Below, piece by piece: positions 5,705 to 27,030 of a stretch of DNA of 64,000 bases. The first letter of the stretch is position 1. Each line of letters begins with the position of its first letter. The notes beneath the pieces were generated by a model, which was given only the letters and a program-made list of their open reading frames with translations, did no database searches and was not told the origin of the DNA. Both the position numbers and the translations under genes were made by a program. Origin of the DNA: a virus; the IMG/VR virus record IMGVR_UViG_3300023179_000038, positions 1 through 64,000 of that record; one strand, given 5' to 3'.

Positions 5705-6313
5705 ATGCCATATACAGTTAATAATATACCAGTTGGTCACAATCCAGATGAAATTGAAAGACTAGAATCGTATAACCAATTTTTTGAAAAAGTTGGAAGT
5801 TCATCAGAAAACATTAAACTAATACCAAACTTTTTATCCGAAGATGAGATTAAGTATTTACTTGATAGTATTAGTGAAAACAGAAAACTTAGTTTTGAAT
5901 CACAAAAAGATGATTTAGGCAACGCTATAAATTGGATGCATATTTATACTGGCATAGAAGATAAGTTTAAAATTAAAGATAGGATAAAAACTGAAATAAT
6001 TAATGCCTATGGATTCAATAAAATAAGACCAAAAGAGTTTCAACTCAGTGTAGCAAAATGGGAAAAGGGAACCAAATTAAATCTACATGTAGATGACTTA
6101 GGTTATGTTACAAACAATCATATACCTACCCTTATTTATTTAAATGATGATTACGAAGGTGGCGAAATTAGTTTTGCTACACACGATATTACCATAAAGC
6201 CTAAAGTTGGAGATCTTTTAATATTCCCTGGAAATATGCACTACGCACATGAAGTCAAAGAAATACTTTCTGGAACAAGATATACCTTGCCAACCTGGTT
6301 TACAATTGTATAG
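5705..6313 (+). CDS. 2OG-Fe(II) oxygenase, prolyl-4-hydroxylase type
   Basis: 202 residues. Jelly-roll core with the complete iron site: His128 and Asp130 (LHVDD), distal His182 (AHEV), and the 2-oxoglutarate-binding Arg192 (GTRY). YLNDDYEGGEISF and LIFPGNM between them are typical of the P4H-like family that hydroxylates proteins or small molecules using 2-oxoglutarate and oxygen. Start set at ATG 5705 because of the -10 box; an in-frame GTG at 5690 lies inside that box. First gene of a cassette with a luciferase-like enzyme and sulfotransferase-like genes. Substrate unknown. Confidence 0.85.
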   Translation: MPYTVNNIPVGHNPDEIERLESYNQFFEKVGSSSENIKLIPNFLSEDEIKYLLDSISENRKLSFESQKDDLGNAINWMHIYTGIEDKFKIKDRIKTEIINAYGFNKIRPKEFQLSVAKWEKGTKLNLHVDDLGYVTNNHIPTLIYLNDDYEGGEISFATHDITIKPKVGDLLIFPGNMHYAHEVKEILSGTRYTLPTWFTIV

Positions 6314-6315
6314 GG

Positions 6316-6321
6316 TATAAC
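6316..6321 (+). promoter_or_regulatory. -10-like box (TATAAC) before the gene at 6328
   Basis: TATAAC, six bases, ATG. Lies just after the oxygenase stop codon; weaker match than the others. Confidence 0.45.
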
Positions 6322-6327
6322 TAAATA

Positions 6328-6591
6328 ATGATAGAAAATGTATCAGAACAACCTAGAAAAAAAAGAAAACTTCTTGATGGATCTGAGGTAAATGATTACG
6401 ATTATCCTATTGATATTATCGTACATACCAAGGCTCCTGGTAAATGGAAGTTAATAGATCTTGAAACTGGTCAAGAATATCTTGGATCAGAAATATCTCA
6501 TGAAACATTTGGAGAAATACTAAGAATAAAAGTGGCAAAGTCTAAAATAGGTTCTTGGTTTAAAACTAAAGGAAAAGTAAAAAAACAATGA
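6328..6591 (+). CDS. Hypothetical protein (87 aa)
   Basis: Basic N terminus (PRKKRKLLDG), a strand-rich middle resembling a small beta-barrel (KWKLIDLETGQEYLG) and a Lys-rich end. It overlaps the luciferase-like gene by four bases (ATGA), so it is part of the cassette. The pattern recalls small adaptor proteins of phages; no family recognised. Confidence 0.65.
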   Translation: MIENVSEQPRKKRKLLDGSEVNDYDYPIDIIVHTKAPGKWKLIDLETGQEYLGSEISHETFGEILRIKVAKSKIGSWFKTKGKVKKQ

Positions 6592-7451
6592 ATAATCGTA
6601 AACCTATAACATTTCATTGGATGTGGAGAAGACACTGGCAGATAAGCGATAGTATTGAAAATTTAGACTTTGATGGAATTCTTCGTATGGCACAAGAACT
6701 AGATGATGCAAATGTTAAGTCTGTATTGCTTCCATATGGTCCAGGTGGTATTGATTTTTCTTTAGTTATAAAAGAAGCATTAGAAAAAACAAATCAGTTA
6801 ATTATGACAATTGCTTTACCTGCATATGGGACAAGTCCAGATTATGCTGCTAAGATTTGTGAAACGTTAAATCGTTTTGCACCTGGAAGAATTGGAGTAA
6901 ATCTGGTTGCTGGAAGGTGGGGCGATGAAGGCAACGGTCCTTCTGAAAAACTAGTTATAGATCATTATATGCACGATTCAAGTTTGATTGATACTTTAGA
7001 AAAAAGAGTAGCAATATCAGCAGTTTGGATGGACAATATAATGGATTTAATGAAACGTCATAGACACAAAACACATATGGCAGTGGTTGGTTCTTCAGAC
7101 ACAACAATTAACATAGCAAATAAACATTGTGAATATATCTATGTTGATGATAATTTAGTATATAGAGATCAATTTAAAAAAATTAATCTTAATAAAGTAA
7201 AACCCATACTCATTATTGATCCACTTATTATTAATAATCCAGAAGATGAACATAATGTTAAATATGACAAAAATGCACCAGTAAGAAAGCAGCATCATCA
7301 CGTAAAGGGTTCAATGCTAGATGTTATTAGACAAATAAGAGAACTATCACAAAGGTTTGAGATATATGACTTTATGATTCATACTGATCAAGCAGATATA
7401 AGTCAGTTATTAAAATTAGTAAAGGAGTTTAACGAATATGGAGATATCTGA
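6588..7451 (+). CDS. Luciferase-like flavin monooxygenase (SsuD-type LLM)
   Basis: 287 residues forming the TIM-barrel of bacterial-luciferase-like, flavin-dependent monooxygenases. Evidence: FHWMWR at the start, GIDFSLVIKEAL, LIMTIALPAYGTSPDYAAK, and RIGVNLVAGRWGDEG, the family's R-x-x-V-N-x-V-x-G turn. Known members oxidise small molecules such as alkanesulfonates with reduced FMN. The protein is shorter than most SsuD enzymes (about 380), lacking part of the insertion. A second copy lies at 25082. Its substrate here is unknown; the neighbours suggest tailoring of the same compound or polymer. Confidence 0.75.
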   Translation: MNNRKPITFHWMWRRHWQISDSIENLDFDGILRMAQELDDANVKSVLLPYGPGGIDFSLVIKEALEKTNQLIMTIALPAYGTSPDYAAKICETLNRFAPGRIGVNLVAGRWGDEGNGPSEKLVIDHYMHDSSLIDTLEKRVAISAVWMDNIMDLMKRHRHKTHMAVVGSSDTTINIANKHCEYIYVDDNLVYRDQFKKINLNKVKPILIIDPLIINNPEDEHNVKYDKNAPVRKQHHHVKGSMLDVIRQIRELSQRFEIYDFMIHTDQADISQLLKLVKEFNEYGDI

Positions 7452-7980
7452 AAAAACTAAAGAAAAATTTAATATAATTGGCAGTAATCTAAATAATATA
7501 AAAGTTTTTAATAATTATCTTAGTGTAAATGAATGCAATAGCATTATAAAACTAATTAAATTTACAAAAACAAGTAATGTTAGACCACTTCAGTCTGAAG
7601 CCTTATCTTTAATATATTATGACTCGCTTGCATTGCCAGAAAAGTATGTGCCTGGAGTACACTCTATGCTAGAAAAAGAATATGGTGTTAAAGTAAAGCC
7701 AAGGCATTCTCGTTTTGCTGAGTGGAGACATAATAATAGCAACACAGTCCCTATTGATGACATGGGGTCTAAAGACTCTAACCATATGGCAGGTTGGATA
7801 TATCTTAATGATAATTATGAGGGTGGAGAACTTTCTTTTATTAATCAAAATATGTCTTTTAAGCCTAAGACGGGAGATCTTGTTATGTTCCCTGGAAATA
7901 TGCACTATTGGTACAATGTAAACCCTGCAAATGGATCAAGATATATTATGCCTATTTGGTTTGATTTTATTAATGAGTAA
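7438..7980 (+). CDS. 2OG-oxygenase fold protein lacking both iron histidines
   Basis: 180 residues, clearly related to the oxygenase at 5705 (shared YLNDxYEGGExSF, KPKxGDLxxFPGNMHY, SRY...P.WF). At the first ligand His is replaced by Pro105 (VPIDD against LHVDD), Asp107 stays; the distal His is replaced by Tyr159 (WYNV against AHEV). Arg168 for 2-oxoglutarate is kept. Such a protein should not hold iron in the usual way, so it may be a binding or scaffold subunit. It overlaps the luciferase-like gene by 14 bases. Confidence 0.8.
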   Translation: MEISEKTKEKFNIIGSNLNNIKVFNNYLSVNECNSIIKLIKFTKTSNVRPLQSEALSLIYYDSLALPEKYVPGVHSMLEKEYGVKVKPRHSRFAEWRHNNSNTVPIDDMGSKDSNHMAGWIYLNDNYEGGELSFINQNMSFKPKTGDLVMFPGNMHYWYNVNPANGSRYIMPIWFDFINE

Positions 7981-7985
7981 ATGTT

Positions 7986-8543
7986 ATGAAACCAATCATT
8001 ATAAGTTTTCCAAGATCTGGACAAAGTTATTTACATAAAACTCTTGGTAATGCATTTAAAAAAAACTTTGGTTTTTCTCATTTAAATAATCCTACAAAAA
8101 TGAATGAATTAAACAATTACGATTATTTAATAGCATTAGTTCGTAATCCAATTGATTCAATATCTTCTATTGTTGCAATGAACTTAGAATTTAATAAAGA
8201 TTTAGAAATAAATAATTCAATAAATTATCAAATAAAAGAATATATAAAGTTTTATTCTTTTGCTTTAGAAAATGCAGATACTTTTATAGATTTTAATAGC
8301 ATAGCAAACAATATTGATAAAGTTATTGAATATGTTTCAATAGTAACTAATTATGCTATTTTAAATAATAAGCCAAAAAATAATATCATACAAGATCTTC
8401 CAGATTATAATTTTTTAAAAACTTCTAAAAAAACAGAAAAATATAACGACATAGTTTTTTCTGTAAAAAATAAAGATTTAAATGAATGTTTTAAATTATA
8501 TCAAAATGCATTAGAGAGATGTGTAAAAATAGATGAAATATAA
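7986..8543 (+). CDS. Sulfotransferase-like protein 1
   Basis: 185 residues. FPRSGQSYL (residues 8..16) matches the 5'-phosphosulfate loop of PAPS-dependent sulfotransferases and LVRNPIDSISS (51..61) the 3'-phosphate motif. Sulfotransferases move sulfate from PAPS to hydroxyl or amino groups. It is smaller than cellular enzymes (about 250 to 300) and very Asn/Lys-rich. It overlaps the next sulfotransferase-like gene by 11 bases. The APS-kinase-like gene at 14022 could provide PAPS. Acceptor unknown. Confidence 0.7.
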   Translation: MKPIIISFPRSGQSYLHKTLGNAFKKNFGFSHLNNPTKMNELNNYDYLIALVRNPIDSISSIVAMNLEFNKDLEINNSINYQIKEYIKFYSFALENADTFIDFNSIANNIDKVIEYVSIVTNYAILNNKPKNNIIQDLPDYNFLKTSKKTEKYNDIVFSVKNKDLNECFKLYQNALERCVKIDEI

Positions 8544-9135
8544 AGATTTGTTTGTTAAAAGTTATGCTAGATCTGCTAGTAATTTTATAATTTATAATAC
8601 TGTACAAATTGTTCCCAATATTAATATTCATAAAAAATCATGGCAAGAACTAAATAAAGATATTTATAACTCTGTTACTGTTTCAATTCTAAGAGACCCA
8701 AAGGATGCAATAATTTCAGACATATCTATGAGTATCTATGATATGCAATACGACATTGATCAGGTTATTAAATTAGACTATAAAAAATCTATTGATTCTT
8801 TTAAAGAATATATAGCGTTATTAAATAAAAATATAAATAGAATTATCCCTTTTACATTTGAGCAAATTACTGAAAATTCAAAAGAAACTTTTAAAATATT
8901 TTTACAAGAATGTGGACATTATGAAGATTTTAACTTTCCTAATGCTAAAATAAAGCAAAAAAATTTAAATAATAAATTAATGAATAAACGACAGATTTTT
9001 TTACCTTCATCAAAAAATTTAGAAATATATAGTAAAATTTCAAATTATATAAATAATGATATTTTTAATTCTGTTTTTGATGAATACAATGAGTGTAAGT
9101 TAAATATATACAAGCGCCAACTTGATTTTTTATAG
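8533..9135 (+). CDS. Sulfotransferase-like protein 2
   Basis: 200 residues. SYARSASNFI (10..19) occupies the P-loop-like phosphosulfate site in degenerate form (no Gly) and ILRDPKDAI (52..60) matches the 3'-phosphate motif well. The weakened first motif means activity is uncertain. It overlaps its paralogue at 7986 and precedes the SGNH gene; the two neighbours probably arose by tandem duplication and diverged strongly. Confidence 0.6.
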   Translation: MKYKDLFVKSYARSASNFIIYNTVQIVPNINIHKKSWQELNKDIYNSVTVSILRDPKDAIISDISMSIYDMQYDIDQVIKLDYKKSIDSFKEYIALLNKNINRIIPFTFEQITENSKETFKIFLQECGHYEDFNFPNAKIKQKNLNNKLMNKRQIFLPSSKNLEIYSKISNYINNDIFNSVFDEYNECKLNIYKRQLDFL

Positions 9136-9150
9136 CAAAGACGATATAAT
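9122..9150 (+). promoter_or_regulatory. Promoter TTGATT-17-TATAAT for the leaderless SGNH gene
   Basis: TATAAT then CAAAT then ATG 9156, a five-base gap. The same GATATAATCAAATATG block precedes the paralogue at 25064, so the promoter was copied with the gene. It overlaps the end of the upstream gene. Confidence 0.7.
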
Positions 9151-9155
9151 CAAAT

Positions 9156-10169
9156 ATGACTTTTTTAACAAAAGATATCTTAAGTTTTTATGAGTTTAAT
9201 CAAAAAAATAACTGGTATCTAACAAAATTTTTTACAAACACTTCCAATATTGGTCTCTATCCTCCATACGCTCAAAATGTTATTGATAAATATCCAAATG
9301 GTAAATCAAACATTAGCATAGTTGATGAACATAATACATACGAAATTAACAACTTTGGTTTTCGTGGAAAAATTGACAAAGATGCAGATGTACTTGGGGT
9401 TGGTTGTTCTATAACTTTTGGCATTGGTGTTCCAGAATCAGTAAGGTGGACAAATTTTTTAAGCAATAGTCTTAATAAAAATGTTATAAATTTAGGAAGT
9501 CCTGGTGCATCTGTAGAAATGATTTGTAATAATATTATTAAGTATTCTTTAACAACTAAAATACCAAAAGAAATTTTTTGTTTATTTCCAGATTTTTTTA
9601 GAAATATGGTTGTAGTAGATAAAGAATTTTATAAATCAAAAATGATAAAAGACAATGATGTAGAAAGTGATTATTTACAATATACATTTTGTAATCCTAT
9701 AGTAGATGTTTATAAAGAATCTCTTTTTATGGAAATAGAAGATCAAAAAAATATAGAAGACTCAATTTCCCCACATCAATTAATTTTAAATTCTATAAAT
9801 TTTATTTATAATTTAGAATCATTTTGTTTTACAAACAACATTAAATTATATTGGACGACATGGGATATACCAACTGCTATGATTATGAATAAATTGGTTA
9901 ATCTTAAAAATTTTAAATTAAAAAATTACACACCTTTTTATTCGCCCAATCTAAAAACAAAATATCGTGGACATACCTTAGATTGTATTTTAGACCATGA
10001 ATCTGAATTTAAAGATAGTTTATTTTGGCATAAAGGGTCTGATTATTCTATAATAAATAATAAAAAAAATTTAAAAAATGCTCATCCAGGAATTCATTTT
10101 CACTACCATATTGCAGATTTCTTTTATAATTTATATAAAAAAAATGCTATCCAAGTCCCCATCGTCTAG
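9156..10169 (+). CDS. SGNH-hydrolase-like protein, copy 1
   Basis: 337 residues. Block I is GCSITFG with Ser85 as nucleophile, the oxyanion Gly114 lies in NLGSPGAS, and the catalytic His310 in NAHPGIHFH. The usual Asp three residues before that His is Lys307, whereas copy 2 (24069) has Asp. SGNH enzymes are esterases or acyl transferases acting on sugars and lipids. The last five codons and the stop lie inside the tRNA-Glu gene, so the end of the protein is tRNA-derived (AIQVPIV). About two thirds of residues match copy 2. Confidence 0.75.
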   Translation: MTFLTKDILSFYEFNQKNNWYLTKFFTNTSNIGLYPPYAQNVIDKYPNGKSNISIVDEHNTYEINNFGFRGKIDKDADVLGVGCSITFGIGVPESVRWTNFLSNSLNKNVINLGSPGASVEMICNNIIKYSLTTKIPKEIFCLFPDFFRNMVVVDKEFYKSKMIKDNDVESDYLQYTFCNPIVDVYKESLFMEIEDQKNIEDSISPHQLILNSINFIYNLESFCFTNNIKLYWTTWDIPTAMIMNKLVNLKNFKLKNYTPFYSPNLKTKYRGHTLDCILDHESEFKDSLFWHKGSDYSIINNKKNLKNAHPGIHFHYHIADFFYNLYKKNAIQVPIV

Positions 10170-10227
10170 TGGCCTAGGACGTCGCCCTTTCACGGCGTTA
10201 ACACGGGTTCAAATCCCGTTGGGGACG
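10155..10227 (+). tRNA. tRNA-Glu (TTC)
   Basis: Acceptor 10155..10161 pairs with 10220..10226, discriminator G10227; loop 10187..10193 carries TTC at 10189..10191; T arm GGGTTCAAATCCC. It overlaps the 3' end of the SGNH gene by 15 bases on the same strand, so read-through transcription must be processed. Confidence 0.93.
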
Positions 10228-10255
10228 CAATATTATAATAAGGTAAAATACAGCA

Positions 10256-10261
10256 TATAAT
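10256..10261 (+). promoter_or_regulatory. Possible -10 box for the gene at 10280
   Basis: TATAAT after the tRNA, 18 bases before the ATG, leaving room for a GGAG Shine-Dalgarno site (10269..10272). Confidence 0.45.
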
Positions 10262-10279
10262 TGTAACTGGAGAATATAA

Positions 10280-10951
10280 ATGAATGATAATTATATAGAA
10301 CGTAATCAAATTGACACTTATTCTAAAAACTTGTCAGAAGGTAAAATTCATGTAGCAACATTTCCAAGAACGGGATCTACATATCTCTGGTGGATATTTC
10401 ATATTTCTTTTGGAAAAAATGTTTATAAAACTCACATTGTTAATGAACCACCAGGAAATGATATTGCAAATCTGCCAAGAGACTATTATTGGAAAATGAA
10501 TAAAATTTTTTTTAAAGATGAAGACTATGTAGTTAATATATTAAGAGATCCCATTGACACGGTCTCATCAATGTTAGTTCAAGAATATTTCTACTTAAAA
10601 AATAAAGTTGATTTAGAAAAATATATAGATGATAACGTTGAAAGTCGTATAAGGCAATATAATATTTTTCATCATAATGTCCCAAAACTTTGCGAACTTA
10701 TATTAAATTATGAAGATATAAATTTATATAGGAATAAAATTGTAAATCATATTAGTAAAGAAACTGGTAAAAAAATTATAAGCACTGACTATAAATATTC
10801 TATAAAAGATAACGTAAGTACTAGTTTTTTAAAATCTTCAAAAGTTTTTGATAACTATAACTTTGTGCGAGAGCAGGCTTCTAATCGTAATCTTGTTGAT
10901 TCATATAGCATATATAATAATTTATTAAAAAAATGTAAAAATTTTAAATAG
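10280..10951 (+). CDS. Sulfotransferase-like protein 3
   Basis: 223 residues, the best conserved of the three: TFPRTGSTYLWW (27..38) is a complete phosphosulfate loop and NILRDPIDTVSS (86..97) the 3'-phosphate motif. GGAG seven bases upstream of the ATG supports the start. It is the last plus-strand gene and converges on the minus-strand block. It is separated from the rest of the cassette by tRNA-Glu, which hints at insertion of that tRNA or of this gene. Likely PAPS-dependent; acceptor unknown. Confidence 0.75.
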   Translation: MNDNYIERNQIDTYSKNLSEGKIHVATFPRTGSTYLWWIFHISFGKNVYKTHIVNEPPGNDIANLPRDYYWKMNKIFFKDEDYVVNILRDPIDTVSSMLVQEYFYLKNKVDLEKYIDDNVESRIRQYNIFHHNVPKLCELILNYEDINLYRNKIVNHISKETGKKIISTDYKYSIKDNVSTSFLKSSKVFDNYNFVREQASNRNLVDSYSIYNNLLKKCKNFK

Positions 10952-12142: not shown

Positions 12143-12148
12143 ACTATC

Positions 12149-14021: not shown

Positions 14022-14783
14022 TTACAAACCAAGTTCTTTGCGCTTTTCAGTAGCCGAAATAGCATGAATATCTGCCCCCAAATCTACTTGTTCAATCTTA
14101 TATCCTACATCACGACCATATACAATATTAGTAATGTTTGGTAAACGCAATACCATTGCACCATTCATAAACTCATCTTTAGCAATATACTCTTTTACCT
14201 GATCAAATGTAAGTGGATCTTTTTCACTTGTGTTGTATGTATTACGAACTCCAAGCAATACTTGGTCTGTTCGTTTACCCGCTTCTACATATAAGGCGTG
14301 ATGACCTTCATGCCATGGCTGATATCTACCCAACATAAGTGTTGTAGGTGCAGACCAATCATGTAATTTAAATTGATTAATTATTTGAGTTGATTTTTCA
14401 TTTGCATCCCATTCATGACTAATAAATGCAATGTCATAAGAAAGTGGTACCTCAAACATTTTATTTGTATCTTCAAATCTTCCCTCTTGAATTGTAGCCA
14501 TATACACAAGAATATCTGGTTTGCCAAATGCTGCACGAGTAAGGTCTGTTGGGCACACGAAGTCTACAATAACTGGAGCAACTCCCTGTTTTGCAATAAC
14601 TCTTGCCATCTCTCCCATGCGTCTTGCTTGTTCAATGCGATCTTCTAAGGTAAATCCAAGATCAGAATTAACTGTTGCACGAACTTCATCTGCATTTAAA
14701 TGAATTGCGTTAATTCTTTCTTTTAATGCCTTTGCTAATTCTGTTTTACCAGATCCAGGTAAACCTATAATTTGTATAATCAT
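14022..14783 (-). CDS. APS-kinase-like domain fused to a nucleotidyltransferase
   Basis: 253 residues. Domain 1 (about 1..125): Walker A GLPGSGKT (7..14), LNADEVR, then LGFTLEDRIEQARRMGEMA, closely following adenylylsulfate kinase (CysC), which makes PAPS from APS. Domain 2 (about 145..253): GRYQPWHEGHH (152..162) with the H-x-G-H core and ISATEKR (242..248), as in NMN- or other cytidylyltransferase-like enzymes. ATP sulfurylase uses a related fold, so the fusion could make PAPS from sulfate, but NadR-like or other nucleotide activation is also possible. Follows WhiB in one operon. Confidence 0.7.
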   Translation of the reverse strand: MIIQIIGLPGSGKTELAKALKERINAIHLNADEVRATVNSDLGFTLEDRIEQARRMGEMARVIAKQGVAPVIVDFVCPTDLTRAAFGKPDILVYMATIQEGRFEDTNKMFEVPLSYDIAFISHEWDANEKSTQIINQFKLHDWSAPTTLMLGRYQPWHEGHHALYVEAGKRTDQVLLGVRNTYNTSEKDPLTFDQVKEYIAKDEFMNGAMVLRLPNITNIVYGRDVGYKIEQVDLGADIHAISATEKRKELGL

Positions 14784-18232: not shown

Positions 18233-19657
18233 TTATCTTGTAATTATAAAGTTGTATTCTTTTTCCCATGCCTGAATATCTATTTCATCATTAAGCAACG
18301 GCTGTCCTTTAATATTAAGACTAGTATTAAGAAGAATTGGAACACCTGTTAATGTATACCAATTTGACAACACTTTATGTAATCCTTGATGTTGAATCTT
18401 ATTTACAGTTTGAACTCTAGATGTTCCGTCTCTATGAACTACTGATGGTATTTTGTCTGGTTGTAAACACTTAACAGCATACTGCATGTATGGTGAATCA
18501 AAATCCATATCAAACCATTTGTCTGCATACTCTTCAAGCACTACTGGGGCAAAAGGTCTAAACAATTCTCTTTTTTTAATTTTATTTACCTGATCTTTAA
18601 TGTTTGGATCTCTTGGGTCTGCTAGAATACTTCTATTTCCCAACGCTCTTGGTCCATACTCTGCTCTTCCAGTCGCTACCGCTACAATTTTATTTTTAAT
18701 TAATTTATTTATTATTTCAGATGCTGGATATTGTCCACCAAGATCAAAACCTAAATATGGTGATTGCCAATCTAAATGTTCTCCGTATAGTGCTGCTGCT
18801 GCACCCAAAGATGATCCAGCATCTCCAGGGTTTGGCATAATCCATACATCATCAAATATATCCCACAACATTGTGTTGGCTGAACAATTTAATGCACAGC
18901 CACCCATAAACACTAATTCATTCTTACCTGTAATTTTTTTAGCGTGAATCATAAAATCAAATAGTCTTAATTCATATACCTTTTGAACTGCTGCTGCAAT
19001 ATCAAACTTATCCTGCTCTGTTATTTCTTGTTCCCAGTCATGTATTCCTTTGTGAAAATTATATGATTGATAATATATTGAAGGAAAATAAGATGAAACT
19101 TTTTGATAATATTTTTTCCAGTCACCATACGCAGCCATACCCATCATAATATATTCTTCTTGGTTTGGCATCAATCCAACTAATTTAGTAAATGCGGAAT
19201 AAAATAGTCCAAAACTAAATGGATAATTTATTTTTTCTTTTAAGATAATTGAAGATCGCTCTCCAATCCAAATTGTAGATGTATTATATTCTCCAATTGA
19301 ATCTAACACTACAATAACGGCGTCATCAAATTTGCTTGTATAATACCCTGCTGCTGCATGGGAATAGTGGTGTTTAAATGATATTTTTGGAATATTATCT
19401 AAATGAAAGCGTGGCTTCCAATCTCCTAAACCACCCCTAAAAAGCAGCCTAGAGGCTTTTAAAAGGGGTTTCTCATAGTAGGCAACATAATCGGGCATGC
19501 CATATTGCAAAGCATCTTTTATTAAACTATCATTGAGGTACCAGTCATTTTTTTGTTTGCTATATCGCTCTGCATGACCAGCAAATAATATTTTATTATT
19601 TTCAATTAGTGATACTGAAGCGTCATGAGATGTTTCATTAATACCAAGAATTCGCAT
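18233..19657 (-). CDS. NodU/CmcH-type carbamoyltransferase
   Basis: 474 residues, slightly short of the usual 550. MRILGINETSHDASVSL, the HHYSHAAAGYY metal/nucleotide motif (about 96..106), VIVVLDSIGE, FMGGCALNCSAN and EYGPRALGNRSILADPR are all present, covering both the Kae1-like and YrdC-like C-terminal domains. These enzymes make carbamoyl-AMP and transfer the carbamoyl group to sugars, antibiotics or bases. Start after GGAGAAGAATA; its ATG overlaps the stop of the oxygenase upstream. Acceptor probably made by neighbouring enzymes. Confidence 0.88.
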   Translation of the reverse strand: MRILGINETSHDASVSLIENNKILFAGHAERYSKQKNDWYLNDSLIKDALQYGMPDYVAYYEKPLLKASRLLFRGGLGDWKPRFHLDNIPKISFKHHYSHAAAGYYTSKFDDAVIVVLDSIGEYNTSTIWIGERSSIILKEKINYPFSFGLFYSAFTKLVGLMPNQEEYIMMGMAAYGDWKKYYQKVSSYFPSIYYQSYNFHKGIHDWEQEITEQDKFDIAAAVQKVYELRLFDFMIHAKKITGKNELVFMGGCALNCSANTMLWDIFDDVWIMPNPGDAGSSLGAAAALYGEHLDWQSPYLGFDLGGQYPASEIINKLIKNKIVAVATGRAEYGPRALGNRSILADPRDPNIKDQVNKIKKRELFRPFAPVVLEEYADKWFDMDFDSPYMQYAVKCLQPDKIPSVVHRDGTSRVQTVNKIQHQGLHKVLSNWYTLTGVPILLNTSLNIKGQPLLNDEIDIQAWEKEYNFIITR

Positions 19658-20322
19658 TATTCTTCTCCAGTTGATTCTCTTTTATTTGCAAAAGAAATGT
19701 TGTGATACCAATTTGGCAAAGCATATCTAGGCCCTTTTGTAACTGGATAAACTTCGTGTACATATAAAAAATTTGATGGGAAAAATAAAATACTACCAGC
19801 CTCTGGCTTAAATTTTAAATTAGAATGTTTAAATTCAATTTCTCCACCCTCATAGTCATCATTCAAATATAACAATACAGACAAAACCCTACTACTTATT
19901 CCCTGATCTTGATGTGCTGGAAGATGTCCTGATTCATTGTATTTTAATAGGTGCATTGTTTTTTCTCTTGATTTAATATTTTTTGCAGCAAACGGATAAA
20001 TTTCTGTTGAGTAATGGTTTAATGTAATATCTAATGAACCAAAAAGTTCGGAAGAAATATGTTTTTGTTCTTCTAAATAAATATCATCAAGTGGTATATC
20101 TTCAACTTGTGGTATAAATTTCTGCAAACAAAAATTTAATTTATTACTTCCTTCGCCATATGTCCAAGGAATCCAGGGCCTTACAATTGTTTTTTTATAA
20201 TTTTCAGGAAAAGAAAGAAATTTTTCATTTAATAACTCAATTTTATTAATTAGTTCATCAGGGTTATTTACAATATTTTTGTAATAAACCATGCCAAGAT
20301 CAAGTATTTTATATTCTAACAT
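19657..20322 (-). CDS. 2OG-Fe(II) oxygenase, P4H type (HQD)
   Basis: 221 residues with a complete iron site: His137/Asp139 (AHQD), His189 (YVHEV) and Arg199 (GPRY). YLNDDYEGGEIEF is shared with the copy at 5705. The N-terminal 100 residues are longer and unlike the other copies. Coupled by one base to the carbamoyltransferase, so the two products may be consecutive: hydroxylation, then carbamoylation. This order is inference. Confidence 0.83.
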   Translation of the reverse strand: MLEYKILDLGMVYYKNIVNNPDELINKIELLNEKFLSFPENYKKTIVRPWIPWTYGEGSNKLNFCLQKFIPQVEDIPLDDIYLEEQKHISSELFGSLDITLNHYSTEIYPFAAKNIKSREKTMHLLKYNESGHLPAHQDQGISSRVLSVLLYLNDDYEGGEIEFKHSNLKFKPEAGSILFFPSNFLYVHEVYPVTKGPRYALPNWYHNISFANKRESTGEE

Positions 20323-20382: not shown

Positions 20383-20988
20383 TTAATTTTTTTTATTATG
20401 TTTTTCATAATATAATGCCTCCCATCTTAAATTTTTATTTTCTTCAATAAAATCTGGATCTGCATGTTCTGGAATGCTAGTGTGCATATAAAGCGCCGTG
20501 TGCCTATGCCCTTCTGTAATTTCTGTTATACCATGAATGTATTCTGATCCAGCACTTGGAAAAAAAACCGCAGAGTATTGTTTTGGCCTATATATAAAAT
20601 CTTGATTTGGAAAATAAATTTCTCCTCCATTATATTCTGAAGAATCATTTAAATATATAATTGTGCTCCACTCAATAAATGGCTCTGGGCCTTGTGCATC
20701 TATATGCAAATCTCCTTTTGTTCCTTTAGTCCAATGAGATCCAAATGCTTTAAAGGTGTATATTGGATTAACAAAACCATTCAATTCTCTGTGCTTTTCA
20801 TTTGCAAAAATAGAATATTTTCTTAATATACTAATAACATTTTTATTATATGGAAAGGCGGTACCACCGTATCTTTTTTTGTAATATTCTGGATATGGGT
20901 TTGTTTCACTTGGATTTAATTGCTCATCAATCAAAATTTTTGCATCTTCTTTACCTATAAAGTTATCAATTACATTAATTCTGTGCAC
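20383..20988 (-). CDS. 2OG-Fe(II) oxygenase (HID)
   Basis: 201 residues from a GTG, supported by GGAGG five bases upstream. Iron site His95/Asp97 (LHIDAQG), His152 (YIHGI), Arg162 (HRH), with STIIYLND and YNGGEIYFP. Complete and likely active. Lies between a glycosyltransferase-like gene and another oxygenase. Confidence 0.82.
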   Translation of the reverse strand: MHRINVIDNFIGKEDAKILIDEQLNPSETNPYPEYYKKRYGGTAFPYNKNVISILRKYSIFANEKHRELNGFVNPIYTFKAFGSHWTKGTKGDLHIDAQGPEPFIEWSTIIYLNDSSEYNGGEIYFPNQDFIYRPKQYSAVFFPSAGSEYIHGITEITEGHRHTALYMHTSIPEHADPDFIEENKNLRWEALYYEKHNKKN

Positions 20989-21048
20989 AAGTTCCTCCGT
21001 TGCTAAATATAAATTTGATCGATGTGCCTATCTCGTTATTCTATTATA

Positions 21049-21873
21049 CTATAAAACTTCAATTTTATTATATCCAGAATGAAATTTTAATGTATTAGCG
21101 TTATCAATTGATATACGCACATCTGAATATGGAACATCATTTATCTGATATGGCAATTTTGGAATAGTAGACACCTTTATTTTATGAAAACTTTCAAATA
21201 AATCATTATTTAAATTATTAACAATATCAATCATGTCATTATATCCATGCGTTTTGGAATATGGATAATACATAATGTCCTGATCTATATTTTTTATTTT
21301 ATAGAATGTAGAATTCATAGAAAATATTTTGATTCCTTTATTAAGAGAAAGAATTGAGGCAAAAAGTTCTTGTCCATAATGTTTAAGACAATTTAACTGA
21401 TTTAAAAAAATTGAATCTTTTTGTTTTAAAAAAATTAAATCCATGTCAATCAAATTTGACTCTAATATTACATCGTTATACTTTTTATTAAATACAAGAT
21501 TGTTATTTTTTACTGATATATTTTTAAAAAAATTTCCAGATATAATTGTATTTTCTTTTAATGATTTAATAAGTAGGCTATCCCACTCATTAGTAAGTGA
21601 TATATTTGGTGACAGTTCTAAAAAATAGTCTGCTCTTTGATCAAACAATACGTGTTTTCTATAAAATGGTATTCCCTTTGTATCATCCCATGAAATATGT
21701 CGATAAAATGTATTATTTATTGATTTAAAGTTATAAGATCTATCTAATGTGTTTTGATCAAATATATGATAAATAATCTTATTTTCATGACTTTCGTTAT
21801 TTATTATAGAAAGAATGTTTTCTAATAAATCTTTTACCTTATATGAATAAATAAATACATTTATCGAATTCAT
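21049..21873 (-). CDS. Glycosyltransferase-like protein (GT60/GlcNAc-type, tentative)
   Basis: 274 residues. INVFIYSYKVKDLLENILSI at the start, an IIYHIFDQNT strand, RHISWDDTKGIPFYRKHVLF and DYFLELSPNISL resemble the GT-A fold of PF11397 (GlcNAc) enzymes. In that family a hydroxyproline made by a prolyl hydroxylase is glycosylated (Skp1 system of Dictyostelium). It is flanked on both sides by oxygenases of the prolyl-hydroxylase fold, which fits, but the usual metal DxD is not clear here. Confidence 0.5.
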   Translation of the reverse strand: MNSINVFIYSYKVKDLLENILSIINNESHENKIIYHIFDQNTLDRSYNFKSINNTFYRHISWDDTKGIPFYRKHVLFDQRADYFLELSPNISLTNEWDSLLIKSLKENTIISGNFFKNISVKNNNLVFNKKYNDVILESNLIDMDLIFLKQKDSIFLNQLNCLKHYGQELFASILSLNKGIKIFSMNSTFYKIKNIDQDIMYYPYSKTHGYNDMIDIVNNLNNDLFESFHKIKVSTIPKLPYQINDVPYSDVRISIDNANTLKFHSGYNKIEVL

Positions 21874-21876
21874 TTT

Positions 21877-22599
21877 TTATAATGGGAAATAGTGTTGTTC
21901 ATTTGCATTGCCTCGTAAGGCCTTTAATGGCGTTATATCATATGCAATAGTAATTCGTGGACCTTCCCAATCCCAGTCTGCCATAGCATGTGGATGCCCC
22001 ATCTCAGAGACAACCAATCTATTGTCTATGTTTTTATTTTCAAACTTTTGGTCATCTTTGTTATCAATCTTGTACCATGTTGATGATGGCTCTGCTTTAA
22101 CACAATAGTAACCATGAAAGAATGGTGCCCAAGGGCCACCATGATCATGCCAGTCTAACTTACCCTTGCCCTTATGTGTAATATTAAACCAACCCTGAAT
22201 CATGTATTGTTGTTCTTCAAAGTTTATTCCATAATATTCGCATGCTTCTTTTACGGTTTCTCTAACGCCAATAAAAAGTTTATAAATTTCTTCATTGTAA
22301 AATTGAAACACATTATATTCTTTCCATTTTACAGTTGAAAGGCTACCACTTTCAAGCCAAATCTCTCTTCCATATTCTCCCAATTTGCTTACACCTGGAA
22401 CTTTTGCTTGCTCTATTTGATCATATTTTAGTTCTAAAAATTTAGACAACTTATCTAGGTCATTATCTAAAAACTTTTCAAAAAACTTGTGTGGCTTGTT
22501 ATATCTTTTTGGTGTTAAGTATATTGCATTTTGCATGTTAAGTCCTATCCCCCTAGTTAAATTAATTATATCACTAACTAATACTGCTTTTTTTGCCAT
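21877..22599 (-). CDS. Putative 2OG-Fe(II) oxygenase (HDH variant)
   Basis: 240 residues. LDWHDHGGPWAPFFHGYYCV (His151, Asp152, His153), then GHPHAM (His202/204) and PRITIAYD (Arg215) follow the layout of the small putative 2OG oxygenases in cyanophages. Spacing at the first motif is H-D-H instead of H-x-D, so iron binding needs a check. Overlaps the next upstream gene by 22 bases. Confidence 0.7.
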   Translation of the reverse strand: MAKKAVLVSDIINLTRGIGLNMQNAIYLTPKRYNKPHKFFEKFLDNDLDKLSKFLELKYDQIEQAKVPGVSKLGEYGREIWLESGSLSTVKWKEYNVFQFYNEEIYKLFIGVRETVKEACEYYGINFEEQQYMIQGWFNITHKGKGKLDWHDHGGPWAPFFHGYYCVKAEPSSTWYKIDNKDDQKFENKNIDNRLVVSEMGHPHAMADWDWEGPRITIAYDITPLKALRGNANEQHYFPL

Positions 22600-23315
22600 G
22601 TTGTTTTTTTATAGTGTGCGGTTATATGTGTCCTTCTTTTTTCTTCTCTTTCTTTATTTTGCCAATATTTTTCTTCAGATACATCTATGTCCAGTTCCCA
22701 ATCTTCCCTTTTGATAGGAATCATCTGAAATAAAGGCGTACCTTTTGGGATTATTCCAACAAATCCACGTTTTAAAAAAAATGGGATAAATGTTGGAAGA
22801 CCCCAAATGTCTGTATCAACTATAGCAGAAGAACAGTAAAATGGCAAATCATATCTATTTAATGGTGTTGTAAATAGCAAAGAATATCCAGGTGGCGTTT
22901 CTTGATACCAGGTCATTTTCCAACCAAACTGAATGGGATAGCATTCTTTTGGTATTGGTATGTCTACTTTGGGTCTTGTATCAATAATGTGATCATTACT
23001 TTTCCAACTTATAGAAGGTTTTTCGTTATCATTTATATCAATAAAAATATCTTCTGGTAATAAATACATATAGCCAGAAATTAAAGCATCTAAAAATGGT
23101 GGGCATAACTTTGTTGCTACATCCGAACCATCTTGCCCTCTATCATTTACTGGGTGTAAAAACCTTATATTATTGCTAGATGCACCATTATATCCAGCCA
23201 AATCTTTATACCAGTCTGGAATTACTTTTAATGCCTGCACTGGTGGATTTTGATATGAATTACTATTTTGTGATTGTGAGGTTGTAGAAAAAGTTATTTT
23301 TTTTCTATTTTTCAT
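22578..23315 (-). CDS. Cupin-like protein related to DUF6065
   Basis: 245 residues. VIPDWYKDL, TKLCPPFLDALISGYMYLLPEDI, FGWKMTWYQETPPGYSLLFT, IVDTDIWGLPTFIPFFLK and IIPKGTPLFQMIPIKRE are conserved blocks I know from unannotated cyanophage and marine proteins that resemble DUF6065. Probably a beta-barrel; no catalytic residues are obvious. It overlaps the genes on both sides, so it belongs to the cassette. Confidence 0.55.
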   Translation of the reverse strand: MKNRKKITFSTTSQSQNSNSYQNPPVQALKVIPDWYKDLAGYNGASSNNIRFLHPVNDRGQDGSDVATKLCPPFLDALISGYMYLLPEDIFIDINDNEKPSISWKSNDHIIDTRPKVDIPIPKECYPIQFGWKMTWYQETPPGYSLLFTTPLNRYDLPFYCSSAIVDTDIWGLPTFIPFFLKRGFVGIIPKGTPLFQMIPIKREDWELDIDVSEEKYWQNKEREEKRRTHITAHYKKTTWQKKQY

Positions 23316-23967
23316 GTAATATCCGCTTCGCTAATTTTTTATCTTTAATAATTATATCACATATAGGGCTTTCTACATTTATTATGCCAAATATATCTCC
23401 GTTAAATTCTTTTATATGTTCTCCAGTATTTTTAATAAAAAAATGAATAAATCCTACATCCCATATGTCTTTATCTCTGTTTATTTTATTAAATACAATA
23501 GTATCGCTATGAATAAAAAATACAGAGTTAGGTACTTCTTGTATTTTTGCCTCAACATCTGCATCAACTATCCATGGAATATAAAACTTATACATTGCGT
23601 CAAACGTTCCAATAGGTGCTTTTACATCTAAGTTTGATGGGTAAAATTGTCTTTGCATAACTTTGTCTAGTGCATATATTCCATTTGGTTTTTTTTCAAA
23701 CCATATTTCTGCATGTGTTTTATATCTTAAAATAACTGTATCTTTTTCACAAATTATTTCTGGCTTATAAGAAAAAATTTTTGCATACTCATTTGCTGGT
23801 TTTAATACTTTATCTGAATAACCATTATCGAGTAAGGTTTTAGAAAGTTTCCATTTATCATATTGCAAAATATTATCTTTGCATATTTCACTAAACGTTT
23901 TTAGTTCAGAATTAACCCAATACTCTGAGCCAATTCTTCTTCTGTTTAAAAAATTGTTTAAGTCCAT
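23305..23967 (-). CDS. Hypothetical protein, distant relative of the gene at 22578
   Basis: 220 residues. The order of blocks (IYALDKVMQRQFYP, FYIPWIVDADVEAKI, DKDIWDVGFIHFFIKN, then an NGDIFGIINVESPICDIII end) parallels its neighbour, suggesting an old tandem duplication. Leaderless: TAAAAT six bases before ATG, directly after the tRNA-Asn gene. Function unknown. Confidence 0.6.
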   Translation of the reverse strand: MDLNNFLNRRRIGSEYWVNSELKTFSEICKDNILQYDKWKLSKTLLDNGYSDKVLKPANEYAKIFSYKPEIICEKDTVILRYKTHAEIWFEKKPNGIYALDKVMQRQFYPSNLDVKAPIGTFDAMYKFYIPWIVDADVEAKIQEVPNSVFFIHSDTIVFNKINRDKDIWDVGFIHFFIKNTGEHIKEFNGDIFGIINVESPICDIIIKDKKLAKRILHEK

Positions 23968-23973
23968 ATATCT

Positions 23974-23979
23974 ATTTTA
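23974..23979 (-). promoter_or_regulatory. -10 box (TAAAAT) of the leaderless gene at 23967
   Basis: Minus strand TAAAAT, AGATAT, ATG. Lies just downstream of tRNA-Asn. Confidence 0.55.
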
Positions 23980-23994
23980 CCAAAACACAACTTG

Positions 23995-24067
23995 CTGGTC
24001 TAGCAGGTCTCGATCCTGCGACATCTCGATTAACAGTCGAGTGTTCTACCAACTGAACTATAGACCA
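23995..24067 (-). tRNA. tRNA-Asn (GTT)
   Basis: Acceptor TGGTCTA (24067..24061) pairs with TAGACCA (24002..23996), discriminator G; anticodon loop CTGTTAA with GTT; T arm with GGATCGAGACC-type loop. CCA not encoded. It begins one base after the stop codon of the SGNH gene. Confidence 0.92.
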
Positions 24068-24068
24068 A

Positions 24069-25064
24069 TTATTTAACTGTGGATAACTCATAAAAAAATT
24101 CTGCAATATGATAGTGAAAATGGATTCCTGGATGAGCACGATCTGATGTTTTTTTATAATTTACAATAGAGTAATCAGATCCTTTTGTCCAGCATATATT
24201 GTCTTTAAATTCAGAATTATGAAATGAATCACATTGTGTTGCTACAAAATTATCAAGATTTTTTGGCTTATCTTTTGACATAAAAGGTACAAAATTTTTT
24301 AATTTAAAGTCTTTAAGTTTTATTAATTTTTCCATAATAAAAGAACTTGGAAGGTCCCATGTTGTCCAGTATAATTTTATATTATTTGACAAACAAAATG
24401 ATTCTAAAATATAAATATTATTTACAGCATTTAAAATTAATTGATGTGGAGAAATCGAGTCTTCTATATATTTTTGATCTTCTATTTTCATAAAAATAGA
24501 ATTTTTGTATAACTCAACTGTTGGGCTACAAAACGTAAGTTGTAGTATATTTTTTTGTTCAATTCTTTTGTCTGGTATTTTTGGCTTATAAAATTCTCTA
24601 TCTACTACAACCATACGTCTAAAAAAATCTGGAAATAAACAAAAAACTTCTTTTGGCATTTTATTATTCATGCAATATTGAATAATATTATTACAAATAG
24701 TTTCTACAGATCCTCCAGGATTGCCCAAGTTCATAACATCTTTATTGGCTAGATTTCCTAAAAAATTTGTCCATCTTCCCTCTTCTGGAACTCCAATACC
24801 AAAGGTAATAGAGCAACCTGATGCAAGAATATCTGAATCTTCATAAACTTTTCCCCGTAAGCCAAGGCTATTAATTTTATATGTATTGTATTCATCTATT
24901 GTCCCTGTATAAGGATCACCGCTTGGTTTTGAATATACAACATTTTCAGCATACGGTTGATAAAAACCAACTTCTTTGGTATCTTTATAATATTTTGCTA
25001 AATACGAGTTATTTTTTTGATTAAACTCATAAAAACTTAAGATATCTTTTGTTAAAAAAGCCAT
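24069..25064 (-). CDS. SGNH-hydrolase-like protein, copy 2
   Basis: 331 residues. Ser85 in GCSITFG, NLGNPGGS oxyanion block, and a complete Asp308-x-x-His311 (DRAH) unlike copy 1. The first nineteen residues are almost identical to copy 1 (9156) and the GATATAATCAAATATG promoter block is shared. Both copies are followed by a tRNA. Probably an esterase or acyl transferase acting on sugars or lipids; no signal peptide, so it acts inside the cell. Confidence 0.78.
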   Translation of the reverse strand: MAFLTKDILSFYEFNQKNNSYLAKYYKDTKEVGFYQPYAENVVYSKPSGDPYTGTIDEYNTYKINSLGLRGKVYEDSDILASGCSITFGIGVPEEGRWTNFLGNLANKDVMNLGNPGGSVETICNNIIQYCMNNKMPKEVFCLFPDFFRRMVVVDREFYKPKIPDKRIEQKNILQLTFCSPTVELYKNSIFMKIEDQKYIEDSISPHQLILNAVNNIYILESFCLSNNIKLYWTTWDLPSSFIMEKLIKLKDFKLKNFVPFMSKDKPKNLDNFVATQCDSFHNSEFKDNICWTKGSDYSIVNYKKTSDRAHPGIHFHYHIAEFFYELSTVK

Positions 25065-25069
25065 ATTTG

Positions 25070-25075
25070 ATTATA
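25070..25075 (-). promoter_or_regulatory. -10 box (TGATATAAT) of the leaderless SGNH copy 2
   Basis: Extended -10, then CAAAT and ATG (five-base gap), identical to the block before copy 1. Confidence 0.65.
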
Positions 25076-25081
25076 TCATAT

Positions 25082-25879
25082 TCATATCTTGTAATTATAT
25101 TCTTTAACAAAATTTAAAATTTCTTTAATATCTTTTTTATTCCAAACAGAAAACCAAGCAGAAAACATTATTTGTGTAATTCCTTTGCTTCTAAGTTTGT
25201 CTATTATGATAGTCAATTGATCATAAGTAAATTTTACATACTCTGAAGGGATTTCTATAACTCCTTCATATCCATTTAAATTATCTAACTCTTCTTGTGT
25301 TTTTCTTATAATTGGTTTAAAATACATCATAACTTGCTTATCTAATATTTGTTTATCTGATATATTGTATTGATTGTTTATATACTGATGATATGGAATT
25401 ATTATTTTGTTATTATATTTTGATGCAGTTTCAAAAGTAAAATTATTAGTTACCGATACATAGTAGTCTGGTTTTTCTTCTTGTGGTATTTGGCTTAATA
25501 AGTCAATATATTCTATAAAGTGATTAGATTTTTTTGTGTTTGACTTGTTTGTTATTGGACCTAAAGTTTTAGACATTTTTTGTTCTGTAAAAACTTTATT
25601 ACCAGATACTAAATTTATTTGTAGCCTATTTTCTTTAGAAATTTCCTTAATAGATTTATCTATTTTAACTAAATACTCTGGTGACAAAACATATGGCCTA
25701 ATAGCAACCATATATTTAATTTTTTTATGAATATCAAGATCTCTCGCTATTTTTGTAAAAAAATCAGAGCGCAATGGGTTATAAGGAAAAAGATTTCCAG
25801 TAAAGCCAATATCTTCCATTTGAGTGAGTAGATTGAAATCTTGATTAATTAAATAAAAATCTATATTATTTAAAGTCAT
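25082..25879 (-). CDS. Luciferase-like flavin monooxygenase, copy 2
   Basis: 265 residues from ATG 25879; a GTG three bases upstream (GTGATG) is the alternative, giving a four-base overlap with the previous gene. MVAIRPYVLSPEYLVKI and RLQINLVSG are the SsuD/luciferase barrel signatures, followed by a shortened insertion and GITQIMFSAWFS near the end. Distant from copy 1 (6588). Same position relative to SGNH and oxygenase genes as copy 1. Confidence 0.72.
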   Translation of the reverse strand: MTLNNIDFYLINQDFNLLTQMEDIGFTGNLFPYNPLRSDFFTKIARDLDIHKKIKYMVAIRPYVLSPEYLVKIDKSIKEISKENRLQINLVSGNKVFTEQKMSKTLGPITNKSNTKKSNHFIEYIDLLSQIPQEEKPDYYVSVTNNFTFETASKYNNKIIIPYHQYINNQYNISDKQILDKQVMMYFKPIIRKTQEELDNLNGYEGVIEIPSEYVKFTYDQLTIIIDKLRSKGITQIMFSAWFSVWNKKDIKEILNFVKEYNYKI

Positions 25880-26424
25880 CACCTAATTAGTCCAAGTTTT
25901 GGTCTAACTAGATCTGAGCCAGCAAATTTAAACCATAATGTGGCAGAATATCTTTCTTTGTCAGTATTTTGAAGCACTTCATGCCAATAATCAGCATTGC
26001 TAGGAAATGTAATAAAACTATTAGCCTTTGGTTTAATCTTTAAATTATGATCCATAAAATTAATTTCTCCACCACCATAGTCATCATTAAGATAATATAT
26101 TGCTGCAAAATCTCCTGCTGTATCTGCATGTTCGTTCATTTTGTAATCTTTTTCAAATTTAACTAAAGGCACCTGTCTATTTTTAAAAGGATAAAGATCT
26201 GCATTATAAAGTTTTGTACATTTTTCGTAAGCAAGTAAAAAAACTTTATCCAATAAATTAATGATTTCTTTTGGCATTGCGTTAGGTGAAAGCGTTTTGA
26301 CTCCCCAAGGCTGTGTATCCCAAGAATCAACGCTTTGTGCATAATCAAGCAATTTTTTATGATCTTCTTTAGATAAAATTTTTTCTGTAACCTGTATATT
26401 ATTTACAGAATTTCCTATTGTCAT
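25879..26424 (-). CDS. 2OG-Fe(II) oxygenase, P4H type (HAD)
   Basis: 181 residues. His99/Asp101 (NEHADT), His148 (YWHEV), Arg158 (KERY). Tandem duplicate of the gene at 26428: shared LSKEDHKxLLDYA, YYLNDDYxGGEINF, DHNLKIKPKANS. Leaderless: the -10 box is formed by the last codons of the upstream gene. Intact site, likely active. Confidence 0.83.
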   Translation of the reverse strand: MTIGNSVNNIQVTEKILSKEDHKKLLDYAQSVDSWDTQPWGVKTLSPNAMPKEIINLLDKVFLLAYEKCTKLYNADLYPFKNRQVPLVKFEKDYKMNEHADTAGDFAAIYYLNDDYGGGEINFMDHNLKIKPKANSFITFPSNADYWHEVLQNTDKERYSATLWFKFAGSDLVRPKLGLIR

Positions 26425-26427
26425 TTT

Positions 26428-27030
26428 TTAATTATACCATTCTGATTTTTTATTAAATGTAGACCCAGTAAACTGAAACCACATAGTAGAACTATATCTG
26501 TCACCTTCAGTAATTTCGAGGACTTCATGCAAATAATTTTCATTTCCAGGAAAAATTATTAGGCTATTGGCTTTTGGTTTAATCTTTAAATTATGATCTG
26601 GAAAATTAATTTCTCCACCACTATAATCATCATTGATATAATATATTGACGCAATGTGGTTTCCTTCAAACGATGAGGTATCTACATGTGGAACTAAATA
26701 AAAATTTTTTGTAAATTTAACTAAATGTGGCGCAGTTTTCCAAAAAGGATTAAGATCTACACGGTAAAAATCTATAGAATTTTTGCGAGCAAGTTCAAAT
26801 ATACCATCTAATATTTCAAAAATTTCTTTTGATAAGTCTTGTGATTCAATAGTCAAAGCATCCCATGGCTGTTCTGTCCAACATTGAGCATTTTTTGCAT
26901 AATCAAGCAATTGTTTGTGATCTTCTTTAGACAGCACATTTTCTATGTAATGTATATTGTCTGTAGAATTACCTATTTTTAAAATATTTTTTATGTAAAC
27001 TTCATCTTTTTTAGATGGATCAGTAATCAT
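26428..27030 (-). CDS. 2OG-Fe(II) oxygenase, P4H type (HVD)
   Basis: 200 residues. His115/Asp117 (PHVDTS), His168 (YLHEV), Arg178 (GDRY). It has a 19-residue N-terminal extension over its tandem copy. First gene after the UAA tRNA on this strand, with a TAGAAT six bases before the ATG (leaderless). Substrate unknown. Confidence 0.83.
   Translation of the reverse strand: MITDPSKKDEVYIKNILKIGNSTDNIHYIENVLSKEDHKQLLDYAKNAQCWTEQPWDALTIESQDLSKEIFEILDGIFELARKNSIDFYRVDLNPFWKTAPHLVKFTKNFYLVPHVDTSSFEGNHIASIYYINDDYSGGEINFPDHNLKIKPKANSLIIFPGNENYLHEVLEITEGDRYSSTMWFQFTGSTFNKKSEWYN
26431..26436 (-). promoter_or_regulatory. -10 box of the gene at 26424, formed by the last codons of the upstream gene
   Basis: On the minus strand TAT AAT TAA encodes Tyr-Asn-stop of the upstream oxygenase and also reads TATAAT, followed by six bases including the stop, then ATG. 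Confidence 0.5.

Follow-up and report, generated by a model that had tools for sequence, protein, structure and literature searches.

Oxygenase cassettes of a freshwater actinophage family and their possible targets among tail-region repeat proteins

What do the many oxygenases encoded in a single phage genome act on? The window considered here, a stretch of 64,000 nucleotides, covers positions 1-64000 of a virus record of 110,677 bp (IMGVR_UViG_3300023179_000038, G000 below). The original prediction had listed in it nine genes with the 2-oxoglutarate (2OG) oxygenase fold, together with three sulfotransferase-like, two luciferase-like, two SGNH, one carbamoyltransferase, one glycosyltransferase-like and one halogenase gene, and had read them as a joint chemical-modification system for a glycan, a virion protein, DNA or a secreted compound. 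All of these genes were found, at the predicted positions or a few codons off. Most of the tailoring genes fall into three conserved groups, or cassettes (Table 1), and the main evidence on their target, a match between repeat type and enzyme set at a tail-region gene (F), lies beyond the window. The reading that we favour, with about even confidence, is phage-encoded hydroxylation and glycosylation of repeat proteins of the tail region, probable virion components, with the other enzymes acting on attached or surface glycans.

The virus family is one of freshwater viruses of actinobacteria. The window encodes RecA, DNA polymerase III alpha, a DnaG-like primase and a WhiB regulator (PF02467, 4e-12), a protein restricted to actinobacteria and their phages (PMC10611076).

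In the relatives that were examined whole, the 2OG-rich module of the window or arrays of 2OG genes also stand directly beside gene F, outside the region covered by the window. The F protein (84949-86118 in G000) is built of FnIII domains and a low-complexity repeat rich in Phe, with a Hint-like domain often added at the C-terminus; one reading frame runs from the conserved FnIII part through the repeat and, in copies that have it, into the Hint-like part. The gene adjoins one with an Mtd_N (major tropism determinant) domain, and no F homologues were found in named phage records. In G000 and in relatives L133-L212 the Hint-like domain follows the repeat, in several cases with Cys at its start and HN at its end; self-cleavage or covalent attachment is conceivable.

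A scan with F produced 80 contigs, in which 47 distinct loci had enough downstream sequence to be counted. All 22 loci with a Pro-rich F (PPFF and APPGFF repeats) had 5-10 genes of prolyl 4-hydroxylase (P4H)-type 2OG oxygenases behind F, plus DUF6065 proteins, compared to 0-2 2OG genes in the 25 loci with GAF, PFGFT, PFGVFGFS or PYSFT repeats (Mann-Whitney p 1.5e-9, not corrected for relatedness). The repeat classes were set after the data had been seen; the proline counts are bimodal, 0-8 versus 15-20 per 45 residues. When F was thinned to less than 85% similarity in the FnIII part, the separation was still complete among the 34 remaining loci. All 22 Pro-rich loci and all 5 GAF loci have a DUF6065-like gene no more than 6 kb from F, and behind F genes of the PFGFT or PFGFS type (L137, L140, L141, L157-L160 and L209) stands the window's module, complete or for the most part. 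The HxD...H...R/K triad was intact in 159 of 160 array enzymes.

Such arrays bear on an explanation by auxiliary metabolism, in which the 2OG enzymes draw down 2-oxoglutarate or repair DNA and the SsuD-like and sulfur enzymes serve to acquire organosulfur, along the lines suggested for cyanophages. Sullivan et al. 2010 suggested roles in 2OG-level control, energy and DNA repair for the cyanophage enzymes (PMC3037559), and the window does encode both a relative of alkanesulfonate monooxygenase (LLM-A) and an APS-kinase-like protein. However, metabolism leaves unexplained why up to ten diverged enzymes are arrayed behind one repeat protein and why they match the repeat type, and Pfam searches gave no TauD- or AlkB-type match; we regard this explanation as improbable. 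Sulfonate scavenging as such was rejected: it fits LLM-A only, the 2OG enzymes being of the P4H type.

The favoured tailoring of virion repeat proteins would proceed as follows. The P4H-type oxygenases would hydroxylate side chains (proline in the clearest cases) in the low-complexity repeats of tail-region proteins, F being a probable virion component and substrate; a glycosyltransferase (GT) resembling polypeptide GalNAc-transferases would then glycosylate the repeats, and the carbamoyl-, sulfo- and SGNH enzymes would decorate the attached or a host-derived glycan. The 2OG/GT/DUF6065 module and its sister cassettes would be exchangeable protein- and glycan-tailoring units of this phage family. 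Since a repeat and its matching enzymes would travel together, a single exchange could give a phage a fibre with a different surface chemistry. A more specific proposal, which we advance tentatively, is that the tail repeat is exchanged as one unit with its matching oxygenases, as many as ten, and their DUF6065 and GT partners, giving hydroxyproline-rich, extensin- or collagen-like fibres and explaining the multiplicity of phage 2OG genes.

The properties of individual enzymes are consistent with these steps. In profile searches 2OG-C ranked P4Hs (3itq, 5hv0) first, followed by prolyl 3-hydroxylase, PiuC, EGLN1 and PLOD3; this similarity and the linkage to Pro-rich repeats suggest that 2OG-C and the array enzymes may be peptidyl prolyl 4-hydroxylases. 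The HxD...H triad and the distal Arg/Lys were present in all members of families 2OG-A, C, D, F and G. What backs the glycosyltransferase assignment is the predicted fold, whose model matched ppGalNAc-T2 (Foldseek E 1e-9, TM 0.6) as well as mimivirus R699; residues W96-D97 are conserved. Related mimivirus enzymes have a collagen-modifying role.

Several observations weigh against this reading. On a core-gene tree built from two upstream genes for 27 loci, four changes each were counted for the Pro repeat and for the array, yet few independent switches were resolved: on well-supported branches there were two switch pairs, both concordant and too few for significance. F lies next to the array, so their match could come from linked transfer alone. 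The presence of GT was only weakly correlated with repeat threonine (Spearman 0.39), and a GT/Thr-repeat match was dropped as too weak. In the window's own genome F has GAF repeats with no suitable prolines and no array beside it, and the module lies about 60 kb away, beside the carbamoyltransferase. The active site of 2OG-B is damaged: IDD replaces HxD in three genomes, with the first His lost and the fold kept, and the protein may be inactive. Cassette 1 has no neighbouring repeat protein. Finally, the precedent of virus PBCV-1 is ambiguous, as it has a characterised prolyl 4-hydroxylase while an unpublished analysis cited in PMC7019647 saw no hydroxyproline in its virions.

For the window itself the argument is indirect, because its F has only GAF repeats and the module is 60 kb away; we propose nonetheless that this module acts on a virion protein. 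The tail region of the same genome encodes a collagen-like protein (100220) and a (PT)n-repeat protein (96390), the latter with 2OG-J (95132) and an SGNH gene nearby; both proteins are candidate targets along with F. A second possible tailoring cluster was observed at 92047-97235 of G000, with an epimerase, SGNH, an O-fucosyltransferase-like protein (by eye), 2OG-J and the PASTA/(PT)n-repeat protein; five of these genes have close homologues that stand in the same order in G001.

The grouping of the genes was assessed in related contigs. The order of group 1 is 2OG-A, a small open reading frame (ORF), an SsuD-like monooxygenase (LLM-A), sulfotransferase-like and SGNH, and it was kept in most of 60 distinct loci. 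These were counted among 80 viral contigs detected with LLM-A at 80-89% identity: 58 of the 60 have a 2OG gene upstream of LLM-A, and on the downstream side 49 have a sulfotransferase-like gene and 42 an SGNH gene, where 17 of the 60 loci end within 2 kb. The order of group 2 is u23305, DUF6065, 2OG-E, glycosyltransferase, 2OG-D, 2OG-C and carbamoyltransferase. With the carbamoyltransferase at least 598 viral stretches were matched, 80 related contigs being used; at least four of the six other genes preceded it in 13 distinct loci and were colinear in 12 of them. Group 3 consists of 2OG-G and 2OG-F. The intergenic gaps are mostly -22 to +60 bp, so that the tight coupling noted at first inspection stands.

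Could these be independent accessory genes collected at insertion hot spots, with no common target? The cassettes vary among relatives and lie near tRNA genes, and the halogenase and a 2OG pair at 39-40 kb are separate from them. On the other hand, the order kept in 12/13 loci with at least four module genes, the retention of cassette 1 and the matching of repeat and enzymes are not what such collecting would give, and we consider it quite improbable. Since gene groups are conserved, the outcome that would have spoken against a shared function, genes scattered independently through related phages, was not observed. The idea of one joint system held in part: there are conserved groups, but they make up three or more cassettes that can be told apart, and neither the halogenase with its coupled gene nor the 39-40 kb pair, both lying apart among replication genes, belongs with them. 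The tRNA genes (10155-10228, 23994-24067 and 27049-27122) are within or bordering the cassettes and are possible insertion or exchange points.

In cassette 1, LLM-A is by profile similarity an SsuD-like flavin monooxygenase (1e-8), and LLM-B is its paralogue, in agreement with the luciferase-like calls; no bacterial relatives of LLM-A and no homologue among phage records were found. The small ORF matches no Pfam family. For the three sulfotransferase-like proteins (7986, 8533 and 10280) Pfam support is marginal, and ST2 has no Pfam sulfotransferase match; of 112 distinct homologues, 83 carry both motifs of the 3'-phosphoadenosine 5'-phosphosulfate (PAPS) site, 5'-PSB and 3'-PB (a reversed-sequence control gave 1 occurrence of one motif and 0 of the other), which is consistent with PAPS binding. 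The APS-kinase-like fusion protein (14022), with homologues in 32/80 carbamoyltransferase contigs, could supply them with PAPS. The two SGNH proteins (9156 and 24069) are 62% identical to each other, and a third copy is at 93082.

The carbamoyltransferase has the N and C domains of Carbam_trans with the GPRALGxRS motif, which places it in the NodU/TobZ family. It shares domains and motif with O-carbamoyltransferases that include a metagenomic 5-hydroxymethylcytosine (5hmC) enzyme; it differs in being shorter (474 aa), strongly conserved in the phage family and without an adjacent thymidylate synthase, and in being TobZ-like at two of three diagnostic sites. DNA hypermodification would mean carbamoyl or glycosyl groups on hydroxymethylated bases, with the 2OG enzymes as TET/JBP-like base oxygenases. 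A phage 5hmC carbamoyltransferase is known (PMC8670742), and 2OG-C has a weak Tet_JBP match (0.0016), far under the cut-off. However, the 5hmC enzyme co-occurs with the thymidylate-synthase/dCMP-hydroxymethylase family (PMC8670742), and a search for that family (PF00303) found none in 12 records. At the two TobZ-like sites G and R stand in place of the C and T of the 5hmC enzyme, and the third (W408) is V, as in neither. Identity with the 5hmC DNA enzyme was rejected, and these sequence features make DNA modification highly unlikely. Among the four targets suggested at first, virion tail-region proteins and their glycans are favoured and DNA is disfavoured.

Remodelling of a surface glycan rather than a protein deserves more weight; the glycan could be made by the phage or be a cell-wall or capsular polysaccharide of the host. 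On this view the GT, together with the carbamoyl-, sulfo- and SGNH enzymes, would alter receptor sugars, blocking superinfection or aiding adsorption, and the 2OG and LLM enzymes would oxidise sugars or lipids. The relatives TobZ and NovN carbamoylate sugar or antibiotic hydroxyls, and SGNH genes border the carbamoyltransferase in many relatives; cassette 1 (LLM, sulfotransferase-like, SGNH) stands without an adjacent repeat protein, and the tail region of the same genome has an epimerase and an SGNH gene. A cyanophage carbamoyltransferase sits between tail-fibre-like and heptose genes; the heptose side of this arrangement fits a glycan target, and the arrangement as a whole supports tailoring of virion repeat proteins. 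Conversely, the P4H-type oxygenases best match peptide hydroxylases, the GT best matches polypeptide transferases, and a match between repeat and enzyme set would not be expected. We therefore take glycan remodelling without a protein target to be somewhat unlikely.

The density of 2OG genes was less exceptional than had been thought. In the window five genes exceed the Pfam PF13640 cut-offs (5690, 7438, 19657, 25879 and 26428), the first starting at 5690 rather than 5705, and four fall below them and are backed by PHROGs, homology or motifs (20383, 21877, 39364 and 40064), so that all nine were recovered; 2OG-J, beyond the window, brings the record to ten. Of the six relatives analysed over their full length, five have 7-12 such genes and one, a 79.6-kb fragment, has 1. 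Cyanophage S-SCSM1 has 24 (PMC9602691). T4-like cyanophages and Pelagibacter phage HTVC008M likewise have many diverged 2OG genes and a PrnA-type halogenase, with a carbamoyltransferase in the cyanophages, so high density is not new. What differs here is the LLM, sulfotransferase-like and SGNH partners and the linkage of fixed cassettes to a repeat-bearing tail-region gene; published accounts of those phages assign the 2OG genes no function or link them to 2OG levels or DNA repair.

Aquatic phages commonly have multiple 2OG oxygenases, whose role, where papers suggest one, is guessed to concern 2-oxoglutarate levels or DNA repair, and a Baltic survey that recorded viral P4H genes called their use cryptic (PMC9301287). 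PBCV-1, with its P4H, and mimivirus, with R699, are alike in encoding peptide-modifying enzymes, which 2OG-C and the GT fold resemble; they are eukaryotic viruses with one or few such enzymes, compared to the 5-10 arrayed behind one Phe/Pro-repeat protein in bacterial phages. Freshwater actinophage DSL-LC01 (metagenome-assembled) also has WhiB genes and a tryptophan-7-halogenase; the discussion of that paper lists four auxiliary genes for it, and cassettes of the 2OG/LLM/sulfotransferase kind are not among what it reports (PMC10611076). A literature search covering few subscription journals found no paper describing repeat-matched oxygenase arrays. If the favoured reading is true, phages build chemically elaborate fibres resembling extensins or collagens, with a chemistry switchable by cassette exchange. 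Since the match names a candidate substrate and a predicted product (hydroxyproline in (PPFF)n), the question is directly testable with cloned genes.

Table 1. Tailoring genes and associated features in the window.
Feature	Coordinates	Strand	Evidence
2OG-A, prolyl-hydroxylase-like 2OG-Fe(II) oxygenase, first gene of cassette 1	5690..6313	+	PF13640 8.8e-12; HxD...H...R in 14/14
Small conserved ORF, 87 aa, between 2OG-A and LLM-A	6328..6591	+	in 79/80 LLM-A contigs
LLM-A, SsuD-like flavin monooxygenase	6588..7451	+	alkanesulfonate monooxygenase profile 1.1e-8 over 80 residues
2OG-B, 2OG fold, degenerate first iron ligand	7438..7980	+	PF13640 3.2e-8
ST1, sulfotransferase-like	7986..8543	+	PAPS-binding motifs PRSG..Y and RNP.D...S; homologues in 71/80 LLM-A contigs
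ST2, sulfotransferase-like	8533..9135	+	ARSAS and RDP.D...S motifs by eye; 47% homologue in G006
SGNH1, hydrolase/transferase-like	9156..10169	+	62% identical to SGNH2; S85, H310 invariant
ST3, sulfotransferase-like	10280..10951	+	BLAST to ST1 2e-15; Pfam Sulfotransfer_3 0.06
APS-kinase-like domain fused to nucleotidylyltransferase-like domain	14022..14783	-	PF01583 2e-14; PDB APS kinases 5e-9, NMN adenylyltransferase 2e-4
O-carbamoyltransferase, NodU/TobZ family	18233..19657	-	PF16861 1.3e-52; PDB NovN, TobZ, GdmN 1e-47 to 1e-45
2OG-C, prolyl-4-hydroxylase-like oxygenase	19657..20322	-	PF13640 8.2e-18; top PDB profile matches are prolyl 4-hydroxylases
2OG-D oxygenase	20383..20988	-	phrog_61 1.3e-11; motif in 22/22
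Glycosyltransferase, polypeptide GalNAc-transferase-like predicted fold	21049..21873	-	AlphaFold pLDDT 87; Foldseek
2OG-E, divergent 2OG-type oxygenase	21877..22599	-	phrog_81 2e-5
DUF6065-family protein (phrog_7084)	22578..23315	-	phrog_7084 4e-32
u23305, module protein	23305..23967	-	19 distinct homologues, nearly all in module contigs
SGNH2, hydrolase/transferase-like	24069..25064	-	SGNH1 paralogue
LLM-B, flavin-monooxygenase-like	25082..25882	-	LLM-A paralogue, BLAST E 2e-7
2OG-F oxygenase	25879..26424	-	PF13640 2.9e-13; 52% identical to 2OG-G
2OG-G oxygenase	26428..27030	-	PF13640 4.6e-14; adjoins 2OG-F in several relatives
2OG-H, divergent 2OG-fold protein among replication genes	39364..40086	-	HxD...H by sequence; homologous to 2OG-I
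2OG-I, divergent 2OG-fold protein among replication genes	40064..40609	-	H107, D109, H155, R157 invariant in 5/5
Flavin-dependent (tryptophan-type) halogenase	46031..47557	-	PF04820 7e-96
AhpD/CMD-like protein, coupled to halogenase	47557..48084	-	PF02627 1.4e-13

Four of these parts, the small ORF at 6328, the module proteins at 22578 and 23305 and the fusion protein at 14022, were not among the genes first listed. The protein at 22578 is, judging by its family, a divergent DUF6065 (PF19541) member: PF19541 does not detect the window copy, 11/19 family members match it weakly (best 2.6e-6), and array relatives reach 5e-30. A fold search gave weak dUTPase-like matches from a model of pLDDT 73 and was not used; the bacterial DUF6065 neighbourhoods, with TPR and transporter genes and no 2OG match, were uninformative. 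Homologues of 22578, annotated as hypothetical, occur in 49 haloarchaeal and related virus records (e.g. HF2, 48.3 kb). For u23305 no Pfam or PHROG family was matched. In 2OG-E the conserved pattern is an unusual WHDHG...GHPHA...R, with canonical HxD...H spacing in just 6/16.

Among the genes apart from the cassettes, 2OG-H and 2OG-I are each weak alone and are mutually homologous (E 4e-10), with HxD...H conserved. The halogenase, a strong Pfam match, was found in 4 of 11 other records tested, and K72, E345 and W272/W274/P277 of tryptophan halogenases are present in 6/6, with Thr replacing Ile of WxWxIP.

Upstream of the module, three proteins (30121-32637, 32743-34431 and 27132-27986) have likely signal peptides by eye, and relatives of the 30121 protein have long Pro/Thr/Glu-rich linkers; the three may be secreted or exposed at the surface and could serve as alternative substrates. 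A proteasome-beta-like (Ntn hydrolase) gene at 28151-28675, slightly under the Pfam cut-off, is conserved in 37/80 relatives. In G000, beyond the window, 81532-83568 looks by eye like a ribonucleotide reductase and lies near a cobalamin adenosyltransferase match (80411-80905, PF01923 2.8e-47), which suggests B12-dependent nucleotide reduction.

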